Shown piece by piece: positions 8,903-23,391 of a DNA stretch of 64,000 nt. Origin of the DNA: Chitinophaga niabensis (GTDB taxonomy: Bacteria > Bacteroidota > Bacteroidia > Chitinophagales > Chitinophagaceae); contig NZ_CP154260.1 in assembly GCF_039545795.1 (NCBI RefSeq), positions 1,493,001 through 1,557,000 of the forward strand. Reading direction: 5' to 3'. Position numbers and translations under genes: made by a program. Each line of letters begins with the position of its first letter. The first letter of the stretch is position 1. The notes under the pieces were generated by a model. That model saw only the letters and a list, made by a program, of their open reading frames with translations. It had not been told where the DNA came from and searched no databases.

Positions 8903-8975
8903 GATTCTGTAGCTCAGTTGGTAGAGCAATACACTTTTAATGTATGGGTCCTGGGTTCGAGTCCCAGCGGAATCA
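8903..8975 (+). tRNA. tRNA-Lys (anticodon TTT)
   Basis: A 73-base cloverleaf: 7-bp acceptor stem GATTCTG/CGGAATC with one G-T pair, D arm AGCTCAGTTGGTAGAGC, anticodon stem ATACA/TGTAT around loop CTTTTAA (anticodon TTT at 8936-8938), and T arm with GGTTCGAGTCC. CCA is not encoded. tRNA-Lys genes are common integration targets, and the accessory region begins immediately downstream, but no second copy of the tRNA 3' end was seen in the window. Confidence 0.96.
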
Positions 8976-8998
8976 CAACAGCGAAAGCAAAAAGATTC

Positions 8999-9032
8999 AA
9001 AGCCGCATAGATCGTAGGATTTATGCGGCTTT
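8999..9032 (+). terminator. Rho-independent terminator of tRNA-Lys
   Basis: A perfect 11-bp stem AAAGCCGCATA/TATGCGGCTTT closes a 12-base loop and is followed by a T-rich tract. A related hairpin ends the tricorn protease gene at 51708-51743, and both are followed by the same 16 bases. Confidence 0.85.
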
Positions 9033-9361
9033 TCTCTTTTTCGGAAATGAAGTTAATCCTATCCAATCCAATCTGAAGGGATACAAATAAGGATACACCA
9101 AAAAATTCTAAGTTAGTGTATCCATGGCCATAATATCCCCTACAAGCACATAACAAATATGCGTGACTGTAGATGCATTGTTGCATGCATCATCCATGCT
9201 GAGTATGAGAATGCAGGAGAGGAATTTTTAGAAGATTGGGGCTCATGGATGAAGGAAAATCAAAAGATATTCTCTAGACGGGAAGGTGTCAGATAAATCC
9301 GTTCCCTATACCATGAAAAATATATACTGTACATCAAAATAGCAAATAATCTCTAGCTCAA
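9033..9361. other. Non-coding junction between tRNA-Lys and the accessory region
   Basis: No convincing gene lies here. It contains GGAAATGAAGTTAATC (9043-9058, repeated at 51752), and an 8-bp inverted repeat GGATACAC/GTGTATCC (9091-9098 and 9116-9123) whose arms recur in the terminator at 36988-37031. A 45-codon frame at 9159-9296 has no support. The position and repeats would suit an old integration junction, but no recombinase gene is present. Confidence 0.5.
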
Positions 9362-10533: not shown

Positions 10534-12657
10534 ATGAAAATGAGATTAAAATTCAACATGTGGCCACCGGCTGATAACGAATTTCTCATTAATTTGATCA
10601 TTTTCATTATTTTAGTGTATGTCTTTTTTATGATAATACCCAAGTTCGATATTATATCTCTACAAAAATGCTATGAAAGCAATGATCCTCTATCGCAAGA
10701 ATTGAAACAGTTCCTTGACTGGATCATCGCCAAAAAACTCATCCGCTTCCAATCTACTGACATCGCACACTTTCCTCTGCTGATTAAAGAGGGATTGCTG
10801 GTTGTTGATGGTATGGTCGTGGCTGAAAAAGATTGGAGTATAGGTAATCAGCCATTGATGTATTATGGTTTATTCAGGAAGTTCAGCGAGCAATTGAAAT
10901 TTACTTATTCCCCGAACATAAAAAACCTATTTGAATTCCACCTTGCCATGGAGTCTCCATTCATGGTAAATGGGCAACCGCCTCATTCTAACCTCAGCAG
11001 TGGTATGGCTGACTTTTTGGTATTGATGGCAGATCGTTCTTCTCTGCATCAAATAGCAATAGATGTAGAAGCAATGCAGACCAATGATCCACACTTTCAT
11101 ACCTTTTTTAGGATTTTTTTTGACCACTATAAAAACTGGCAATTAAATATAGAAGATCTGCTGTATTGGTTAGATATCTATAATCAAAAAGTAGGTAGGC
11201 CAAATCCTGGTGAATATCACTATGGTTGGAACAAACTGAAACAGTTGCTTAAAGTATACTTATCAGAAAACAATGAAGCCTGGAAGTATGCAGAACAAGT
11301 AGCGTTAAGTAAATTGGGACATGTAGCAAGTGATTACTTTGGCGCATCTATTCTACAGGTTTTAAGGGAATTAGGAGGGATTTCGACAGACACTCTAGTA
11401 TCATGGTTGAATGATCCAGTAAAGTTCCATATATCTGTCGTGCTATTAACAGTCGAACCTATAGTAGATGTAGACCATCTTCGAATTATCAAGCAACGTT
11501 GTTTAATAGTTACATTTGCAGACAAGGGATATTCGGATGTCATTAAACTAGTATCGCATGTCCTAACTACTTTTAGGGACCTATCCATAGAAGATGAGCA
11601 ACTGTTGCTTCAGTTCATAAATAATGCGCTCTGCTGTGAGAATGAGAATATAGTCCATGGGACTATATTCTTGATGGCCATTTCAAAAAGCAGAACTCAA
11701 CAGTATTCTAAACTTTTGCTTGACTTACTACAAAGTGAATCTTGGTTACCTTCTTATTCACAGCCTACCGGCTTATTTTATATATCCCATCAAGATTTGA
11801 ACGGTTATTTTACCTTTCTAATAGCATATAGTCTGATTAACGGGCTATTATTTAATCCGGCTACGTTTGAAGACTCCATTATTATGTTGCATACACAACA
11901 ACCAGCATTGTTTGAATCAGCTGTTGTTCAAATGATGATCCACGACGAAGGATCAGTAAGATATGGAGGAAATCAATTACTATTTTCCCTTCATGGCTAT
12001 CGTCAGATAAAGTCTTTAACATTTGATCTATTGTCTTTAGATGCACTGCAACAGTATAAGTTTATCATAACTATTTTCTATGACAGAGTTCATATGAAGG
12101 AACTGATTACCTATGTTTCTCCTTTATTAGCCACCCCCTCTGATATTGTAAAAGAATTATTACTTTTTAAGTTGGAAGAGTTGCAGATGGGATATAAACA
12201 AGAGGTTATTGAAGAACTATCTCCGCATATTGAAGCCCTTGTGGATAAAACAGGTATCCTAGAAAGGCTAAATGCTGCATTGAAAGAATTGTATAGCAAT
12301 TTGCGCAAAAAACATGGCATACGTGAATTAGATGCTCGGTATGATTATCCAGCTTTAATGCGGCAGTTTTCCAAGGCCCAATTTAAACAATACGAGGGTA
12401 AAAAGAAGTCTATTTTGCCAAAAAAGAGTTTCTTGTCGATGGTGAACCGCGTTACTGTGGCTAGGGGTGGTGGGTACCTGCATCCGGATGGAACGATTCA
12501 TTCCTTCTCTCGACATAGTGTATCTTTTACCATTCCCCGGACAGTATTTCTATCTCCTGAGAAACAGGAATATGCTTCCTATGAATTTTATTCCACTAAC
12601 TGGTCAAATGAATTTTCAACATGCTCACAAACAATATTATTGTCCGGGAATACTTAA
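10534..12657 (+). CDS. Membrane-anchored large helical protein of unknown function
   Basis: A 707-residue protein with one N-terminal membrane segment (about 18-36) and a long, mostly helical body that looks like irregular HEAT/ARM-type solenoid repeats. A basic stretch (EGKKKSILPKK) near residue 625 precedes a short strand-rich C-terminus containing GGGYLHPDGTIHSF. I do not recognise the family. Its last 37 bases overlap the following nuclease gene, so the two are almost certainly cotranscribed and probably work together. A 27-codon frame (10491-10574), preceded by AGAGGAAAA, overlaps the start and might be a leader. ATG at 10540 or 10558 are alternative starts. Confidence 0.8.
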   Translation: MKMRLKFNMWPPADNEFLINLIIFIILVYVFFMIIPKFDIISLQKCYESNDPLSQELKQFLDWIIAKKLIRFQSTDIAHFPLLIKEGLLVVDGMVVAEKDWSIGNQPLMYYGLFRKFSEQLKFTYSPNIKNLFEFHLAMESPFMVNGQPPHSNLSSGMADFLVLMADRSSLHQIAIDVEAMQTNDPHFHTFFRIFFDHYKNWQLNIEDLLYWLDIYNQKVGRPNPGEYHYGWNKLKQLLKVYLSENNEAWKYAEQVALSKLGHVASDYFGASILQVLRELGGISTDTLVSWLNDPVKFHISVVLLTVEPIVDVDHLRIIKQRCLIVTFADKGYSDVIKLVSHVLTTFRDLSIEDEQLLLQFINNALCCENENIVHGTIFLMAISKSRTQQYSKLLLDLLQSESWLPSYSQPTGLFYISHQDLNGYFTFLIAYSLINGLLFNPATFEDSIIMLHTQQPALFESAVVQMMIHDEGSVRYGGNQLLFSLHGYRQIKSLTFDLLSLDALQQYKFIITIFYDRVHMKELITYVSPLLATPSDIVKELLLFKLEELQMGYKQEVIEELSPHIEALVDKTGILERLNAALKELYSNLRKKHGIRELDARYDYPALMRQFSKAQFKQYEGKKKSILPKKSFLSMVNRVTVARGGGYLHPDGTIHSFSRHSVSFTIPRTVFLSPEKQEYASYEFYSTNWSNEFSTCSQTILLSGNT

Positions 12658-14354
12658 ACAGCTTAAAGGAAGATGAGGAATTGGACAAACTATTGCCTAT
12701 TTTGCTCAGTATTAAAGGCTTGAAAATCGTAAGAACTGCTAAAGATACAAAGGGTGTCAATCAACAAGGCAAGGATATCATTGCCTATGGAATGGACAAG
12801 GACGGGATAGCAAAACGTTTTTACTTCGAGGTAAAAGGCCATAGTGATAAGGATATTACCGAAGCATCCATGGCAAAAACCGATGGAATCAGAGATTCCC
12901 TCGTTTCAGCCAAGTACGCCAAATTTGAGCAAAACGGAATTCCTGGGTTTAATGATCTTCCTGTGAAAATAATCCTTGTTCATAATGGGATTCTTAAGCC
13001 AGGTGCCAGAGATGTTTTTAATGGATTTATTGTTTCGCTTTTTGCTGATGGGGAAAGGGAATTTGAACATTGGGACATCCATCGGTTGACTGATGAATTT
13101 AATGAGCACTTATTCAGCGAGTACTTGTTGACGGATGAGGAAAGTATCCGCTTGTTTAAGAGAACATTAGTGCTAATGGAAGTGCCGGACTATAATTTAG
13201 AGGATTTTTATCTATTAGTAGATAAATTATTATCAGGCCAAATTAAAGTTAAAGGACGTTCCTTTACCAAAATGTTTGCTAGTTTAAACTTGATTAGCTA
13301 CATTTTATGGCATTATAGTAAAGAGAATAAAAATCTTTTACCTGCCATCAAAGGTACTTCTTACCTAATTTTGCGCACTTGGGCTTGGATATTGAAAAAT
13401 GAATTGCAATCTAAGCCTGCTGTAATGGAAGTTTTTAAAACTCTTTTAAAAACCCACTACGAAGTATTGAGGGCGTACTATGAAAAGACACTACCGGCCG
13501 CAGTTCTTGAAGATGGCTTATTTTCTGAACCAGGTGGTTCATTTGAAGACATCGGCTATTCACTGCGGTCAATGGATTACTTGGCTATGTTGATATATTA
13601 TTTTGGACTAGAAGAATTCATCATGGGAAACTATATGGATTATGGTGAGCTGAATGTTAGAGAACATCGTAGAAATAATATAAAAACACTTTTTTCCATT
13701 ATTGACAATAATGATGGTTGTAAAAGACCATTGTTAGATATGCATTCCAGACCTATACTCCTGATAAGCGAATATATTATGGGCAACACCTTTTGTAGTG
13801 GCGAAGATATCATTCAGCTAAATAATTACCTGGTACATGTATTAGATGGTATTGCCATGATTGAGGTCATGCGACATCGCTTGCCTGAGTTAAACGACAA
13901 TATAAGCGCTTTGATTGAGACAGCTGCAAGTAGGAAAAAATCTGCCGAATATAAAGATGGTGGTTCTATGTTAATTTTAGCCATTATTGAGATGTTGGCC
14001 GTTGTAGGAAATGCAGGTATGTACAGCGAAACACGGTCAAGGTTTCAGGAAATCGTCAATTTTCAAACCGCCTATCCCAATTGGGAAACCGATCCAAAAG
14101 AAACGGAAATTGCTTACTTCTCAGGTAATATTGCAGATAGTATGGTGGCGGAATCTAGCATTGAATTGCCCGAAGATTTTCACGCCTTTATTGCGCAGGT
14201 AATGAGTAAGCCCAAAGCAGAAGTACCATTTGTAACGGATGCAATTGGCTTATCTTTTCTCAAATCTCTTTCTATAGTTCACTTTAAAAATGACGTATTT
14301 CCTTCACAATGGAGAAGATTTTTATCATCTAATGTTAAACTTTTAGTTGGATAG
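12621..14354 (+). CDS. PD-(D/E)xK nuclease-like protein with large helical C-terminus
   Basis: A 577-residue protein. The N-terminal domain (about 1-165) has a restriction-endonuclease-type core: GKDII with Asp52, then YFEVKG with Glu70 and Lys72, in the order and spacing of Mrr-like PD-(D/E)xK nucleases. The remaining 400 residues are helical and unrecognised. The gene overlaps the end of the membrane-anchored helical gene by 37 bases. A nuclease paired with a membrane-tethered solenoid, next to decaying accessory genes, fits an anti-phage role; that is inference. Nuclease assignment rests on the motif alone. Confidence 0.78.
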   Translation: MLTNNIIVREYLNSLKEDEELDKLLPILLSIKGLKIVRTAKDTKGVNQQGKDIIAYGMDKDGIAKRFYFEVKGHSDKDITEASMAKTDGIRDSLVSAKYAKFEQNGIPGFNDLPVKIILVHNGILKPGARDVFNGFIVSLFADGEREFEHWDIHRLTDEFNEHLFSEYLLTDEESIRLFKRTLVLMEVPDYNLEDFYLLVDKLLSGQIKVKGRSFTKMFASLNLISYILWHYSKENKNLLPAIKGTSYLILRTWAWILKNELQSKPAVMEVFKTLLKTHYEVLRAYYEKTLPAAVLEDGLFSEPGGSFEDIGYSLRSMDYLAMLIYYFGLEEFIMGNYMDYGELNVREHRRNNIKTLFSIIDNNDGCKRPLLDMHSRPILLISEYIMGNTFCSGEDIIQLNNYLVHVLDGIAMIEVMRHRLPELNDNISALIETAASRKKSAEYKDGGSMLILAIIEMLAVVGNAGMYSETRSRFQEIVNFQTAYPNWETDPKETEIAYFSGNIADSMVAESSIELPEDFHAFIAQVMSKPKAEVPFVTDAIGLSFLKSLSIVHFKNDVFPSQWRRFLSSNVKLLVG

Positions 14355-16528: not shown

Positions 16529-16687
16529 CTAAGTTTTCTTTTTTTTCTGAGAGGCGGTAAACTTTTCCCTAACTGCTTTCAAGGCTGCCTTTAATTCTTC
16601 TGGATGCTGCCAGTATTTAACACTCAGCTTTTCACGGATGTCGCGGACTTCCTGAACAGCATCGTATTTTTTATCCTTTTTCATCAT
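16529..16687 (-). CDS. Small antitoxin-like protein downstream of the PIN gene
   Basis: A 52-residue charged helical protein (MMKKDKKYDAVQEVRDIREK at its start, Lys-rich end). Its ATG overlaps the 3' end of the PIN-domain gene by 17 bases in another frame, so the two are translationally coupled. Small proteins of this type accompany PIN toxins in Bacteroidota and are presumed antitoxins; here the partner follows, rather than precedes, the toxin gene. Start could be either of two adjacent ATGs. Confidence 0.7.
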   Translation of the reverse strand: MMKKDKKYDAVQEVRDIREKLSVKYWQHPEELKAALKAVREKFTASQKKKKT

Positions 16688-17141
16688 CTCCTGCTTTTAA
16701 TATTTCGCGGGGTGTTCTAATTTCAATTAATCTGTAGCCTAATCGGAGGTTAATAGAATTGTAAAGCCGAATGCGATCAAGGTTTACAATATGTTTAAAA
16801 TTCCAGCTGGCTAAAACTTCCGCATTATTAATAGTTGCTAAAGCGATGTGAAGGGCATCATTGTAACTCTTATTAGTAAGGGCGCCCTCCAAAATATATG
16901 TTTCCGCCAGCTGAATAGCCTCGTCATTAGTTTCGAGATCAATTCTATGCTGTAAAGGTACTTCTTTTAATTTAGAGTGGATCTCCTCCCTTGCCATATT
17001 CAATTCCAGGAGAACAAGGTCAGAAAGGATAATTTGCTTTGTGCCGGCTTTAAACTCCTCAAAGAGGGCTAAACTCCATTCATTAAATTCGGCATCAAAA
17101 CAGCCGCCGATAACCGATGTATCTGTATATACGTTCACCAT
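16671..17141 (-). CDS. PIN-domain toxin, VapC-like
   Basis: A 156-residue single PIN domain. Acidic metal-binding residues are visible: Asp7 in YTDTSV, Glu46 in LLELN, Asp95 in YNDALHIA, with the characteristic ASWNFKHIVN following. VapC-type toxins are Mg-dependent ribonucleases that cut tRNA or rRNA. It overlaps the small antitoxin-like gene downstream and follows the SymE-like gene by 20 bases, so all three may form one transcript. Confidence 0.85.
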   Translation of the reverse strand: MVNVYTDTSVIGGCFDAEFNEWSLALFEEFKAGTKQIILSDLVLLELNMAREEIHSKLKEVPLQHRIDLETNDEAIQLAETYILEGALTNKSYNDALHIALATINNAEVLASWNFKHIVNLDRIRLYNSINLRLGYRLIEIRTPREILKAGDDEKG

Positions 17142-17161
17142 ACTAAAATACTAAAGGATTA

Positions 17162-17464
17162 TTAATACTTAGATTTTGTTCCAGGAATAGGTTCATTGTT
17201 TTCGTTCACCATCCACTTTTCAGGTATAGTCATTACCCACTTGTTAGCTGTCGGTCTGATCGTAAGGCAGCCATGTTTAACTTCTATCTCAACAATATCC
17301 CCGGATTGGAAGCCTGCTTCCTTAAACCATTTTCCGACAAGCTTTAATGATGGTATTCTGTATTCCGGTTTCCATCTAGTGGTGCCCCATCTACTGTCCG
17401 CAGTATATCCAATTGTAAGTAGGCGTTTGTCTTTTTTGATTTCCATAATTAGCATATTTGTCAT
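17162..17464 (-). CDS. SymE-like toxin family protein
   Basis: A 100-residue protein whose centre (residues 37-71) reads IPSLKLVGKWFKEAGFQSGD then EVKHGCLTIRP, the SymE_toxin/AbrB-like signature. SymE of enterobacteria is an SOS-linked toxin held down by an antisense RNA; whether that holds in Bacteroidota is unknown. ATGs at residues 4 and 7 are alternative starts. It shares a 137-base divergent region with the XRE regulator gene. Confidence 0.8.
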   Translation of the reverse strand: MTNMLIMEIKKDKRLLTIGYTADSRWGTTRWKPEYRIPSLKLVGKWFKEAGFQSGDIVEIEVKHGCLTIRPTANKWVMTIPEKWMVNENNEPIPGTKSKY

Positions 17465-18050: not shown

Positions 18051-18860
18051 ATGAACATGCAAATAGTTTCCTCTGACTTATTAGATCTGTATAAATTTCA
18101 TATAGTAGCACCTGAGTTACTCCATATTTTTAGAAAGTTGAAGGACGCGGAACTTTCTTCTGATAATTTCAGCTTTTATGCTTCTTCAGCCGCTGTGCAT
18201 TCCAGTAAGATTGAAGGGGAAGCCATTGAACTGGATTCTTACGTTAAGCATAAGCGCTTTGGCATAGAATATCAACCCGCTTATACCTGTAAAATAGATG
18301 ATCTATACCAAGCGTATCAGTTTGCAAAGACAATGCGTCTTGAAAGTAATAGTTTAGCCAAGGCACATGTTTTATTAACTAAACATATACTTCCGGTCGT
18401 AAACCAAGGCAAGTTCAGAAGTGAAAATGTACTTATTACCCGAAAGGATGGTGCCATTGCATATGTAGCAGCTTCTTCATCTGATGTGAAAGATGCAATA
18501 GAAAAGCTGTATGCTGATATTGATCTGCTGTTAAAGAGTGAGCTCTCTATTGAAGAGGTTTTCTATTACGCCGGCATGATCCACTTGGTGTTTGTGAAGA
18601 TTCATCCCTGGAATGATGGTAATGGGCGTAGTGCACGATTGCTGGAAAAGTGGTTTCTTGCTGAAAAGTTAGGGGAGAAGGCGTGGTTTTTACAATCAGA
18701 AAAATACTACTACCACCATCACCAGGCTTACTATGATAATATGAGGGCGTTAGGGTTGGAGTATGATTTGTTGGATTATGGGCAGGCGTTAGAATTTTTA
18801 CTGATGTTGCCGAGAGCGTTGATTGGAGAAATGAAACCAGGGAAGATTGTTCCTTTATAA
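18051..18860 (+). CDS. Fic-domain protein with N-terminal inhibitory helix
   Basis: A 269-residue Fic protein. The catalytic motif HPWNDGNGR (185-193) matches HPFx(D/E)GN(G/K)R with Trp for Phe. Near the N-terminus SSKIEGE (51-57) fits the inhibitory (S/T)xxxE(G/N) helix of class II Fic enzymes, with Glu55 expected to block ATP. Such enzymes AMPylate, and sometimes deAMPylate, target proteins. The target is unknown. Its end overlaps the convergent small HTH gene by six bases. Confidence 0.9.
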   Translation: MNMQIVSSDLLDLYKFHIVAPELLHIFRKLKDAELSSDNFSFYASSAAVHSSKIEGEAIELDSYVKHKRFGIEYQPAYTCKIDDLYQAYQFAKTMRLESNSLAKAHVLLTKHILPVVNQGKFRSENVLITRKDGAIAYVAASSSDVKDAIEKLYADIDLLLKSELSIEEVFYYAGMIHLVFVKIHPWNDGNGRSARLLEKWFLAEKLGEKAWFLQSEKYYYHHHQAYYDNMRALGLEYDLLDYGQALEFLLMLPRALIGEMKPGKIVPL

Positions 18861-19203: not shown

Positions 19204-19659
19204 ATGAAGGCTGTCGGAAAATATAAAGAGTATGTAATATATGCACTAAGTGAAAAAGAAACCCTTCAGTTCAAATTAATTGACGTCCCAATATCTGCAG
19301 GGTTCCCTTCTCCGGCATTGGATTATATGGAGGAGGAGCTAGATCTGGTAAAACTGTTCAATCTCAATTCACCTACTGTATATGTCATTAAAGTAAATGG
19401 AGATTCCATGCGAGACGCATATATTCCCAGCAAGGCACTCATTGCAGTGGATCGAAATATCACTCCCCGGGACCGGCACCTGGTAATTGCTAAACTCAAT
19501 CGGGAATTTACCCTTAAAAGACTGCTAAAGACAGGAGCAGGCTGGATGTTACATCCGGAAAATCCGGAATATGATCCCTATACAATAAAACCAGATGATG
19601 ATTTCGAAGTTTGGGGTGTAGTTACCCGTATTTTTATTGATCCCAATCTTTATTTATGA
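19204..19659 (+). CDS. umuD: UmuD-like S24 peptidase, translesion polymerase subunit
   Basis: A 151-residue UmuD homologue. The self-cleavage site is Ala32-Gly33 (SAGFPSP), the nucleophile is Ser68 in NGDSM and the general base is Lys105 in FTLKRL. RecA-stimulated self-cleavage normally makes the active form that joins UmuC in polymerase V. It overlaps umuC by four bases (ATGA). Confidence 0.93.
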
Positions 19660-20918
19660 TTGCGCTTGTTGATTGCAATAATTTTTATGTTTCTTGCGAA
19701 AGACTATTTCAACCAAGCCTGCAGGGAAGACCTGTAGTAGTACTCAGCAACAATGATGGTTGCGTTATTGCCAGATCTGATGAGGCTAAGGAAATAGGTA
19801 TTGAAATGGGCGCCCCTGCCTTTTTCATGGAAGAAATGTTAAGTAGCCACAATGTTGCGGTTTTTTCCAGCAATTACGCGCTATACGGCAGCCTGTCAGG
19901 CCGGGTCATGCAGGTGTTACAGACCTATTGCGGAACGGTAGAAACCTATAGCATCGATGAAGCCTTCCTATTTCTTGGAGATATGCCGAACATCGATGTT
20001 GAACGGTATGCAGCAGATATTAAATCCGCAATCAAAGCCGTGGGTATACCGGTTACGATTGGCATAGCGCCCTCAAAAACATTAGCTAAGATGGCCAATC
20101 GTTACGCTAAAAAAATGAAAAAACACATTGGGACGCATATCCTTGATTCTACTGAAAAGATTCAGGAAGTACTCCAATATACGGAGGTAGGAGACATATG
20201 GGGCGTTGGCCCGCAGTATGCACAACTTTTGAAGCGGAATGGCTTCCGGACAGCTTTGGATCTTTCTTTAGCACCGGAAGAATGGGTACGTAAAAATATG
20301 ACCGTTGTTGGTCAGCGCACCTATAATGAACTGAAAGGCATTCCCTGTATAGAATTTGAGCAAGAACCGCCAGCCAAACAGAATATATGTGTAGCTCGTT
20401 CATTCGGACAATTATTATCCGAAAAAAAGGAGGTGACCGAGGCCCTGGCAAACTATACGGCAACAGCAGCCAAGAAGCTAAGGGAACAGGGCAGCTGCTG
20501 CAGGATGATCAATGTTTTCATCCAAACAAATAATTTTCGCCCACAGGACCTTCAGTATTACAAATCAATAAATATACAATTACCCGTTGCCACATCCGCG
20601 ACCAGTGAGCTGTTACACTACGCAAGAACCGGCTTGGATCATATTTGGCGGGATGGATATAACTTTAAGAAGGTGGGTGTCCTGTTGTTGGACCTTATTC
20701 CTGCCAACTCAGCACAGCGCGGATTATTTGATGAAGTAGATCGCCCCCGTAATGATCGGCTCATGAAGGCCATGGATGCCATCAACAGATCCTGTGGAGC
20801 CAAAGAGTTAGTCAAATTTGCCGTTCAGGGTTATGGACGTAAATGGAAACTTCGCCAGGAGAAACTTTCCCAATGTTATACCACTAGACTGGACCAGGTA
20901 TTAACCATTAATATTTAA
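19656..20918 (+). CDS. umuC: UmuC-like Y-family DNA polymerase
   Basis: A 420-residue Y-family polymerase. Catalytic carboxylates are Asp6 ([13 protein letters not shown]) and Asp101-Glu102 (YSIDEAF); the steric and thumb regions follow, and the C-terminus has the UmuC-specific domain. It performs error-prone bypass synthesis with UmuD'. Translationally coupled to umuD; a third gene follows after two bases. Confidence 0.95.
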
Positions 20919-21612: not shown

Positions 21613-22764
21613 ATGTCCTTCACAGGCATGTTTCAAATCCCCAATGAATTATTAATTAAAAAACGTAGTGAAGATGATATAGCCATTTTGATTGGAGAAA
21701 ATGGTAGTGGAAAAAGTACGATGTTAAATGACATAGCAAAGAAATACATCGATTCTTACACTCAGGTTATTGCAATTGCTAACACGATACATGACAAATT
21801 CAAGGTCAAGAATAAAAGATTTTTTTCTTTAAAAGCATCTGAAGGTAAAAGCATTATAAGAAAGGCTTTAATACAATGTCTTGCGATGGTGGCCCGGGAT
21901 GATATGAAAAGATTAAATAGCATTGGAAATACACTTTCTTATATAGGTTATTGGAAATTACTCGGATTTAAGCTTCGGGGCCTGAAATATAATGCCATAG
22001 ATATAATCGCTCAAAGCGATCTTAGCCCGCAGAGTAAGGAGGAAATTACTTATTGCCTTGAAAATTACAGACGCCAATTTCAGTATAAATATTCCACTGC
22101 TAAGATAACTGTAGATAACCGCTCATTTCAAGCCATTAAAGATTCATATTTATTAACCTTGTTCAAATATGAGAGCGAATTACGAAAACATAAAGTAATT
22201 AGCTATGTAGACTTTTTTTTATACAGAGAAAGAGAAACAATTCCTTTAAATGGTGCCAGTTCAGGTGAGCTTACTTTGATTTCGACTCTTCTATTTATAA
22301 CCAGCATTATTTCATATGATTCAGTAATTCTAATTGATGAACCAGAAAATAGTCTGCATCCAAAATGGCAGATTGAATATGTTAAAAACATGAGTGAGCT
22401 ATTTTATCTTTACCAGCCTAAAATAATAATAGCCACACATTCACCTCTTATTATTAATGGTGCAGATTTGCTTTCAAAAGCTATTCAAATATTTAAAGGT
22501 GTTAAGGGTGAATTTAAATTGCAGGAAAACGAAACTAATAATGTAGAAGAAATATATCAAGATTATTTTGACGTAACTACACCAGAAAATAGGTATTTAT
22601 CAGAACTTGTTATTCATAAAATGAATGATTTGGCTGACGGAGGTATCACTTTGATAGAATTTGAAAAAACGATAAACGAACTAAATTCCAATTCCTATGA
22701 TGATAAACAGAAGGAGGTCTTACACGATATAATCGAAATGGGAAGAAGAATAAAAAAAGCTTAA
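21613..22764 (+). CDS. Septu-like defence ATPase (PtuA-type)
   Basis: A 383-residue ABC/SMC-type ATPase of the AAA_21/OLD-like group. Walker A is GENGSGKST (28-36), an ABC signature-like SSGE lies near 216-219, Walker B with the catalytic acid is ILIDEPE (239-245), followed by SLHP and the H-loop ATHSP (274-278). Paired three bases upstream of an HNH nuclease gene, it matches PtuA of the Septu anti-phage system. The N-terminus is short, with few residues before Walker A, compared with many PtuA proteins. No retron reverse transcriptase is adjacent. Confidence 0.82.
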   Translation: MSFTGMFQIPNELLIKKRSEDDIAILIGENGSGKSTMLNDIAKKYIDSYTQVIAIANTIHDKFKVKNKRFFSLKASEGKSIIRKALIQCLAMVARDDMKRLNSIGNTLSYIGYWKLLGFKLRGLKYNAIDIIAQSDLSPQSKEEITYCLENYRRQFQYKYSTAKITVDNRSFQAIKDSYLLTLFKYESELRKHKVISYVDFFLYRERETIPLNGASSGELTLISTLLFITSIISYDSVILIDEPENSLHPKWQIEYVKNMSELFYLYQPKIIIATHSPLIINGADLLSKAIQIFKGVKGEFKLQENETNNVEEIYQDYFDVTTPENRYLSELVIHKMNDLADGGITLIEFEKTINELNSNSYDDKQKEVLHDIIEMGRRIKKA

Positions 22765-22767
22765 TAT

Positions 22768-23391
22768 ATGGTGTTAGGGCCAGAAGAAATTCATTTAATT
22801 AAAGCAGCTATAAATAGGGGGGGCGATGTATGGAATGACGAAACTTTGTCTGATTTAAAGAGAAAAATTAAGCTTCATTGTTTAGGGCTAACAACTGAAC
22901 AATGTTGCTATTGCAGAACGGATTTTACAAATGAATTTATGATGGTTGTTGATATAGAGCATGTTTTGCCCAAATCAAAATTTGGAGATTTCATGTTCGA
23001 ATTGTTCAATTTAAGTGTTTCATGCAAAAGATGTAACATGAGCATAAAAAAGGAACGAACTGATTTCCTTTTGGATTTGAACCAAATTCGTCTCCAACCA
23101 CAAAATGCTGGTCAATATCTTTTTAGCCATCCTAACCTTGATAACTATTTCGACAATATTGAATATTTATTCAAAGCCAAAAACGATAAAAAAATAATTA
23201 AGTATACACCACTCACAGATAAAGGGCGCTTTACTTATAATTTTTTTAATTTGAATCAGAAAGAGGTAGAAACACTGAATGAAGCTCAAGGAGTTAAAGC
23301 GCCTGGAAATGAATTTTCGCAAAACATTCCTCAAGATCTAATTGGTGACGCACAACAATTATTAGATAAATTAAAGTCACACCCGCTATAA
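22768..23391 (+). CDS. Septu-like HNH endonuclease (PtuB-type)
   Basis: A 207-residue HNH nuclease. The zinc-stabilised beta-beta-alpha core is CCYCRTDF (Cys47, Cys49 region), DIEHVLPKSK (His65), Asn81 in FNLSVSC, and CKRCN (Cys86, Cys89, Asn90). It is the expected nuclease partner of the PtuA-type ATPase immediately upstream and would cut nucleic acid on phage sensing. All key residues are present, so the system may be active. Confidence 0.85.
   Translation: MVLGPEEIHLIKAAINRGGDVWNDETLSDLKRKIKLHCLGLTTEQCCYCRTDFTNEFMMVVDIEHVLPKSKFGDFMFELFNLSVSCKRCNMSIKKERTDFLLDLNQIRLQPQNAGQYLFSHPNLDNYFDNIEYLFKAKNDKKIIKYTPLTDKGRFTYNFFNLNQKEVETLNEAQGVKAPGNEFSQNIPQDLIGDAQQLLDKLKSHPL

Follow-up and report, generated by a model that had tools for sequence, protein, structure and literature searches.

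Which function is encoded by the two large, overlapping genes that lie near a tRNA-Lys gene in a 64,000-nucleotide stretch of the Chitinophaga niabensis chromosome (assembly GCF_039545795.1, contig NZ_CP154260.1, positions 1,493,001 to 1,557,000; this whole stretch is hereafter the window)? An earlier note, made from the sequence, described the pair at positions 10534 to 14354 as an undescribed module of a membrane-anchored helical protein and a nuclease, neither matching a defence system. We found instead that both proteins match the profiles of Olokun, an already described bacterial system of two genes directed against phages, and that the pair is almost certainly a divergent, otherwise ordinary chromosomal Olokun (OloA-OloB) of a Chitinophaga. 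The best explanation overall, to which we give a probability of roughly 0.8, is a divergent chromosomal Olokun in which OloB would be a nuclease and OloA a soluble protein that gates it.

The gene pair matches Olokun

The two open reading frames (ORFs) lie on the forward strand at 10534-12657 (707 codons) and 12621-14354 (577 amino acids), and the 37-base overlap between them (12621-12657) is as first described. The first protein matched the PADLOC OloA profile PDLC03925 (E 6.1e-21) over residues 185-690 of the 707-codon ORF and profile positions 77-594 of 596, and the second matched the OloB profile PDLC03926 (E 1.8e-113) over residues 5-568 and positions 2-554 of 556, while Pfam and NCBIfam searches of the pair gave no useful match. 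The genome, a single contig of 7.2 Mb, holds one OloB match, that of the window. By these matches the pair belongs to a system already known, one attributed to Millman et al. 2022 in PMC10121019. An anti-phage role, proposed earlier together with an anti-plasmid one, is supported by Olokun membership rather than by an assay.

OloA and OloB recur as a unit

A protein search with OloB at a cut-off of E <= 0.001 retrieved at least 281 proteins, among them that of the window; the 119 listed homologues referred to below are the best 119 of the 281 besides the window protein and are biased towards close kin. We read the surroundings of 29 OloB genes, namely the window, 18 loci of the same phylum, nine plasmids (spanning Klebsiella, Agrobacterium, Rhizobium, Halioglobus, Tolypothrix and three of roseobacter type) and one Escherichia coli chromosome. 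These loci were picked by their OloB match, and the pairing count covers OloB-bearing places; it includes L043, whose OloB is short (298 amino acids) and probably broken, and excludes a diverged sister type (L024, L027 and L028) and two OloB fragments of about 50 residues (L010 and L052).

A profile-verified OloA gene stood upstream of oloB at all 29 places and was directly adjacent, on the same strand, at 28, the exception being the Tolypothrix locus (L031), where two ISAs1 transposase genes lie between oloA and oloB. None of the OloB homologues read was thus found apart from OloA, and the pair recurs as a unit. The same 37-base overlap was present in L063, L064, L040 and L065, the four loci nearest the window in the OloB tree, and in the other adjacent pairs the overlap, which depends on the starts chosen, ranged from 0 to 119 bases. 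Because at least 281 OloB proteins were retrieved and the overlap recurs exactly in the four nearest loci, the pair is not a chance arrangement.

In genome collections the system was sparse. Among 395 genomes from the phylum, the OloB profile matched nine; in six of these the match was at E < 1e-20, and all six have OloA beside OloB. It matched none of 14 control genomes. The OloA profile alone matched 22 of the 395 and also 2 of the 14 controls, so its weak matches are unspecific. With the window OloB as query, and with the window genome counted each time, the class yielded matches in 2 of 395 genomes, the family in 8 of 394 and the genus in 7 of 79, one of the seven being a 44-residue fragment. 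The OloB of L063 is identical to P0002 of Chitinophaga sp. 22321. A scan of genome contigs for relatives gave one, L002; the plasmid search gave 23 records, or 34 with the L021 OloB as query; and DNA of the Klebsiella pair was present in 2 of 5426 E. coli genomes. OloB had no match in viral contigs or phage records. Protein searches with OloA and with an OloA alignment, which used a 5-residue-word prefilter, returned only the query, which we take as a limit of the prefilter rather than a sign of orphan status, since the DNA loci yielded 28 other OloA proteins.

Several observations accompany this survey. L024 and L028 are diverged sister pairs (L027 was grouped with them) of an OloA-like protein of 856-891 amino acids and an OloB-like protein of 492-498; both genes of each match the Olokun profiles, and the C-termini of the OloB-like proteins also match Lamassu LmuA (E 8.1e-11 and 5.1e-11). 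Elsewhere, Olokun neighbours included TIR and SIR2 genes (L068) and genes for an AAA ATPase and a CHAT protein (L073). In the congeners L063 (9521-11380) and L064 (9863-11689) a DUF4365 protein of about 610 amino acids, recognized in L064 by its similar start, is encoded 3' of oloB; it is absent from the window, and is possibly an extra component or a mere neighbour.

OloB carries a predicted PD-(D/E)xK nuclease domain

The AlphaFold2 model of OloB (predicted local distance difference test, pLDDT, 86.3) consists of an alpha/beta N-terminal domain, at about residues 1-170 (12621-13130), and a helical tail of about 400 residues. The N-terminal domain shows the PD-(D/E)xK core fold in this predicted structure, and the matching D...(D/E)xK motif, encoded within 12774-12836, comprises D52 (codon 12774-12776), E70 (12828-12830) and K72 (12834-12836), all three invariant in 119 of the 119 listed homologues; E70 is not kept beyond the window's clade. 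The restriction-type core named in the earlier note, with V71 between E70 and K72, therefore stands at the positions given there, its assignment as a nuclease is backed by motif and predicted fold alike, and the long helical tail is likewise seen in the model.

FokI was the top structural match in the VIA-align list, at about 12% identity, with MspJI also among the best. A Foldseek search with the whole model gave no match at E <= 0.001, sequence and profile searches of the PDB gave no nuclease, and Pfam gave no match to the window OloB at E <= 1. Among 49 homologues, 20 Pfam families were matched at E <= 0.5, with no nuclease family and no Mrr_cat-type match among them, and neither the window OloB nor the 49 homologues showed a known DNA-recognition domain by profile. 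Over the tail, the fold search returned mainly helical bundles and repeats, and such helical matches, 14-3-3 included, were discounted as generic. Taken together, motif and model leave little doubt that OloB has a PD-(D/E)xK nuclease fold, in a predicted FokI/MspJI/Mrr-like domain followed by a helical tail.

The ExK glutamate separates two OloB clades

D52 and K72 were present at all 29 loci and E70 at 12, the other 17 having T, S, I, V, A or L in its place. In a maximum-likelihood tree of 39 OloB rows, the 22 rows with E70 fell on one side of a branch with support 100/99; the glutamate of ExK thus marks one supported OloB clade. E70 rows of known origin came from the window's phylum or from named Bacteroidota, and rows without it from genomes of the same phylum, from Pseudomonadota and Cyanobacteriota plasmids and from E. 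coli. The E70 clade is not strictly limited to Bacteroidota, because P0066, one of the 119 listed homologues, comes from a metagenome-assembled genome labelled Paceibacterota. Among the four proteins compared for their PADLOC OloB scores, those without E70 (L068, 2.4e-182; L021, 1.4e-156) scored better than those with it (window, 1.8e-113; L063, 1.7e-102).

The whole D-E-K set is kept in 22 of 22 rows of the window's clade, and D52, K72 and the two helix glutamates E17 and E20 in 16 of 16 rows of the other, where L025, a long branch with R at position 20, was left out of the column comparison. At the helix position of window residue 96, glutamate occurs in 15 of the 16 rows without E70 and in 11 of the 22 with it, the window itself having serine. 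In some restriction enzymes, those of the Cfr10I group, the acidic residue of the active site has moved. It is conceivable, at odds that we put slightly below even, that the active site is built differently in two branches of Olokun: one, found here nearly only in Bacteroidota and including the window pair, with a canonical D...ExK, and another, the branch that scores best with the PADLOC OloB profile, from which the ExK glutamate has been lost and in which an acidic residue shifted to the next helix, at window position 96, may take its place. Were this so, the window pair would be the better model for showing Olokun to be a nuclease system, and we regard this difference between clades as the most interesting by-product of the analysis.

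OloA, its start codon and the mode of action

The two proteins, and the parts within them, have diverged from L063 to different extents. In OloB, identity is 75% for the nuclease domain and 58% for the tail; in OloA, it is 47-49% for the C-terminal half and 24-33% for the N-terminal half. This ranking by segment was found also against L040, L064, L065 and L041, and in distant relatives all parts of OloA were about equally dissimilar. Short forms of OloA (300 amino acids in Klebsiella and E. coli, 325 in L002) matched only the C-terminal part of the OloA profile, from positions 278-360 to 574-589 of 596. Within the better conserved half, which these short forms keep, lies a C-terminal stretch that holds the motif VARGGG (residues 598-672 in 707-codon numbering, 12325-12549), as seen in an alignment of 28 OloA proteins including that of the window. 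The solenoid-like body ascribed earlier to the first protein is consistent with its model, built from two sequences, which shows mostly pairs of helices; the model is of low quality, however (pLDDT 49.7), and the two strands at the conserved C-terminal motif are its least confident part. The pattern of conservation suggests that the C-terminus of OloA contacts OloB and that its N-terminal part is variable and possibly involved in sensing.

From these features a working scheme can be drawn. OloA would be soluble, helical and fast-evolving; its variable N-terminal part would meet a signal derived from the phage, while OloB would be bound by its better conserved C-terminal part. The overlap of the genes would keep the two proteins in step, and their complex would keep the nuclease silent until infection. 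On infection, the OloB nuclease would be freed to cut DNA, so that the phage is stopped or the infected cell killed. For DNA cleavage gated by OloA, as one part of the overall reading, we judge the chances to be a little better than even.

The alternative that survives best, if an unlikely one, is abortive infection of a toxin-antitoxin-like kind, in which OloB would be a toxic nuclease restrained by OloA and freed when a phage disturbs OloA. The strict pairing, the overlapping genes and the position of the partner first all fit such an arrangement, but OloA is as large as OloB in most pairs and so does not resemble a small, labile antitoxin. Somewhat more doubtful is restriction of a Type IV-like kind, whereby OloB would cut incoming DNA on its own recognition, for example of modified bases, with OloA giving specificity and without a sensor of infection. 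That FokI and MspJI, both restriction enzymes, are the best structural matches speaks for it, as does a DNA methyltransferase gene about 1.5 kb beyond oloB on one Klebsiella plasmid (L030), but none of the ten window neighbours scanned was a methyltransferase and the profiles revealed no known recognition domain; OloA, moreover, evolves faster than OloB, which a sensor fits at least as well as a DNA reader.

A third alternative, which we consider improbable, is a membrane-anchored Olokun variant, translated from 10534-10558, in which a lineage-specific N-terminal helix tethers the complex to the membrane as a sensor. It corresponds to the membrane-linked sensor of the earlier note, and its basis is that the frame is open from 10534 and that residues 17-35 of its product are strongly hydrophobic (mean hydropathy 3.14). 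By the measure used for a membrane helix, a 19-residue mean hydropathy of at least 1.6 within the first 100 residues, none of the 28 other OloA proteins has such an N-terminal helix; seven of them have weaker internal hydrophobic segments (1.65-1.99). In the closest relative, L063 (OloB 62% and OloA 37% identical), OloA starts at the residue that matches window codon 33, and the 14 codons between the preceding stop and that start contain no ATG, GTG or TTG, so that L063 cannot encode the helix from any of these. A start at the corresponding ATG of the window, at 10630 (M33), gives a protein of 675 amino acids, compared with 674-679 in L040, L065 and L063. The 32 extra codons of the longest ORF (10534-10629) have no counterpart in the 27 OloA partners aligned, none of which aligns with more than 13 of the residues, and are probably a 5' leader that accounts for most of the apparent helix.

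Two observations weigh on the other side. A codon-bias test placed the 32-codon extension at the 69th or 29th percentile of same-sized gene-body pieces, depending on the null model, so that the test does not tell the extension apart from the gene body. In L064 and L066, too, the longest ORF opens with a short hydrophobic run, below the threshold, before a Met at the common start position; this may reflect the same effect of start choice, or may be a hint of membrane anchoring. On balance, the comparison with L063 and other relatives indicates that oloA likely extends from ATG 10630 to 12657, encoding a helical-repeat-like partner protein of 675 amino acids. This start removes nearly all of the hydrophobic stretch, and the anchor probably arises only because the longest ORF was taken. 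Of the earlier claims on this protein, then, the hydrophobic segment stands as a property of the 10534 frame and the anchor as biology does not; OloA is very likely soluble, and the correction replaces a membrane model that would misdirect experiments.

That OloB is a catalytically degenerate, nuclease-like protein that binds instead of cutting is very improbable: the absence of the ExK glutamate from 17 of 29 OloB proteins (from plasmids, from E. coli and from part of the genomes within the window's phylum) would fit it, but D-E-K is invariant in the window's clade (in the 119 listed homologues and the 22 tree rows), and the other clade, L025 aside, retains its own four acidic and lysine positions throughout.

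Setting: a variable island beside tRNA-Lys

Of the neighbourhood described earlier, the following were found again: a tRNA-Lys(TTT) gene at 8903-8976 on the forward strand (identified by ARAGORN), a Septu pair at 21613-23391, a Fic gene at 18051-18860 and, as toxin-type genes, a PIN and a SymE gene at 16671-17464. The gene before the tRNA, encoding 804 amino acids, had a match in every one of 79 genomes from the genus, and continuous DNA similarity ended at 8976-8999 in all six congeners compared. In these six, Olokun was absent from the tRNA-Lys site and OloB had no match anywhere in the genomes. L104 carries a 7.9-kb insert from the tRNA end, including type I restriction genes, after which the window stretch 8973-9069 resumes. 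L105, which lacks Olokun, has two loci in common with the window, the Fic gene at 75% DNA identity and Septu at 85%; L107, also without Olokun, has Fic-gene DNA in common with it (69%); and L106, L108 and L109 have no long window-like DNA on the 3' side of tRNA-Lys. The 3' side of tRNA-Lys is thus a hotspot for accessory genes in the genus, with the tRNA marking the edge of the variable island in which the pair is found. The guanine-plus-cytosine content of oloA is 37%, versus 46% in a 200-kb sample of the genome, and no exact repeat of the tRNA-Lys 3' end, of 12 to 40 bases, was found in the window as an attachment site. The window's Olokun was probably acquired horizontally.

As to the neighbours themselves, the Septu pair matched PtuA (E 3.5e-112) and PtuB (E 3.6e-69). 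The Fic gene matches the SoFic profile (E 2.6e-22) and is followed by a UmuD/UmuC-like pair (19204-20918), of which the UmuC-like protein scored below the model cut-off and UmuD was recognized by position and sequence only. The PIN-domain gene stands beside the SymE-like gene, and proteins near Olokun in L063 (16531-17001) and L064 (3931-4401) have first residues near-identical to those of the window's PIN protein.

Relation to known systems

Olokun is known but poorly characterised. A table in PMC10855318 places it under 'Nuclease Activity-Nucleic Acid Degradation', citing Millman et al. 2022, so that a nuclease role is already assumed in print; a 2026 review (PMC12926258) gives its mechanism as unknown, in a table row that it shares with other systems; PMC12592470 (November 2025) states that it 'has not be thoroughly characterized'; and PMC12629846 reports it to be almost exclusive to one Pseudomonas island hotspot. 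No mechanistic study of Olokun was found in the literature searched, which excluded most subscription papers and all preprints. The window copy offers a testable hypothesis for the effector, one that names its catalytic residues, and a partner that is probably soluble and has one conserved and one variable half.

Compared with other known systems, the pair differs from Septu (PtuAB), which lies 7 kb downstream in the window, in that Septu consists of an AAA ATPase and an HNH nuclease and neither protein of the pair matched the Septu models. From the FokI cleavage domain, MspJI and Mrr-type nucleases OloB is set apart by its low identity to FokI, the lack of a Pfam match and of a recognition domain by profile, and by having instead a helical tail and, wherever its surroundings were read, a partner gene. 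To Olokun itself the likeness is close, both proteins matching its profiles over most of their length, in the order oloA-oloB, with overlapping genes and in a defence setting; the window copy differs in an OloA so divergent that it is 11-12% identical to those of the Klebsiella and alphaproteobacterial plasmids, and in an OloB from a clade of its own, in which ExK is intact.

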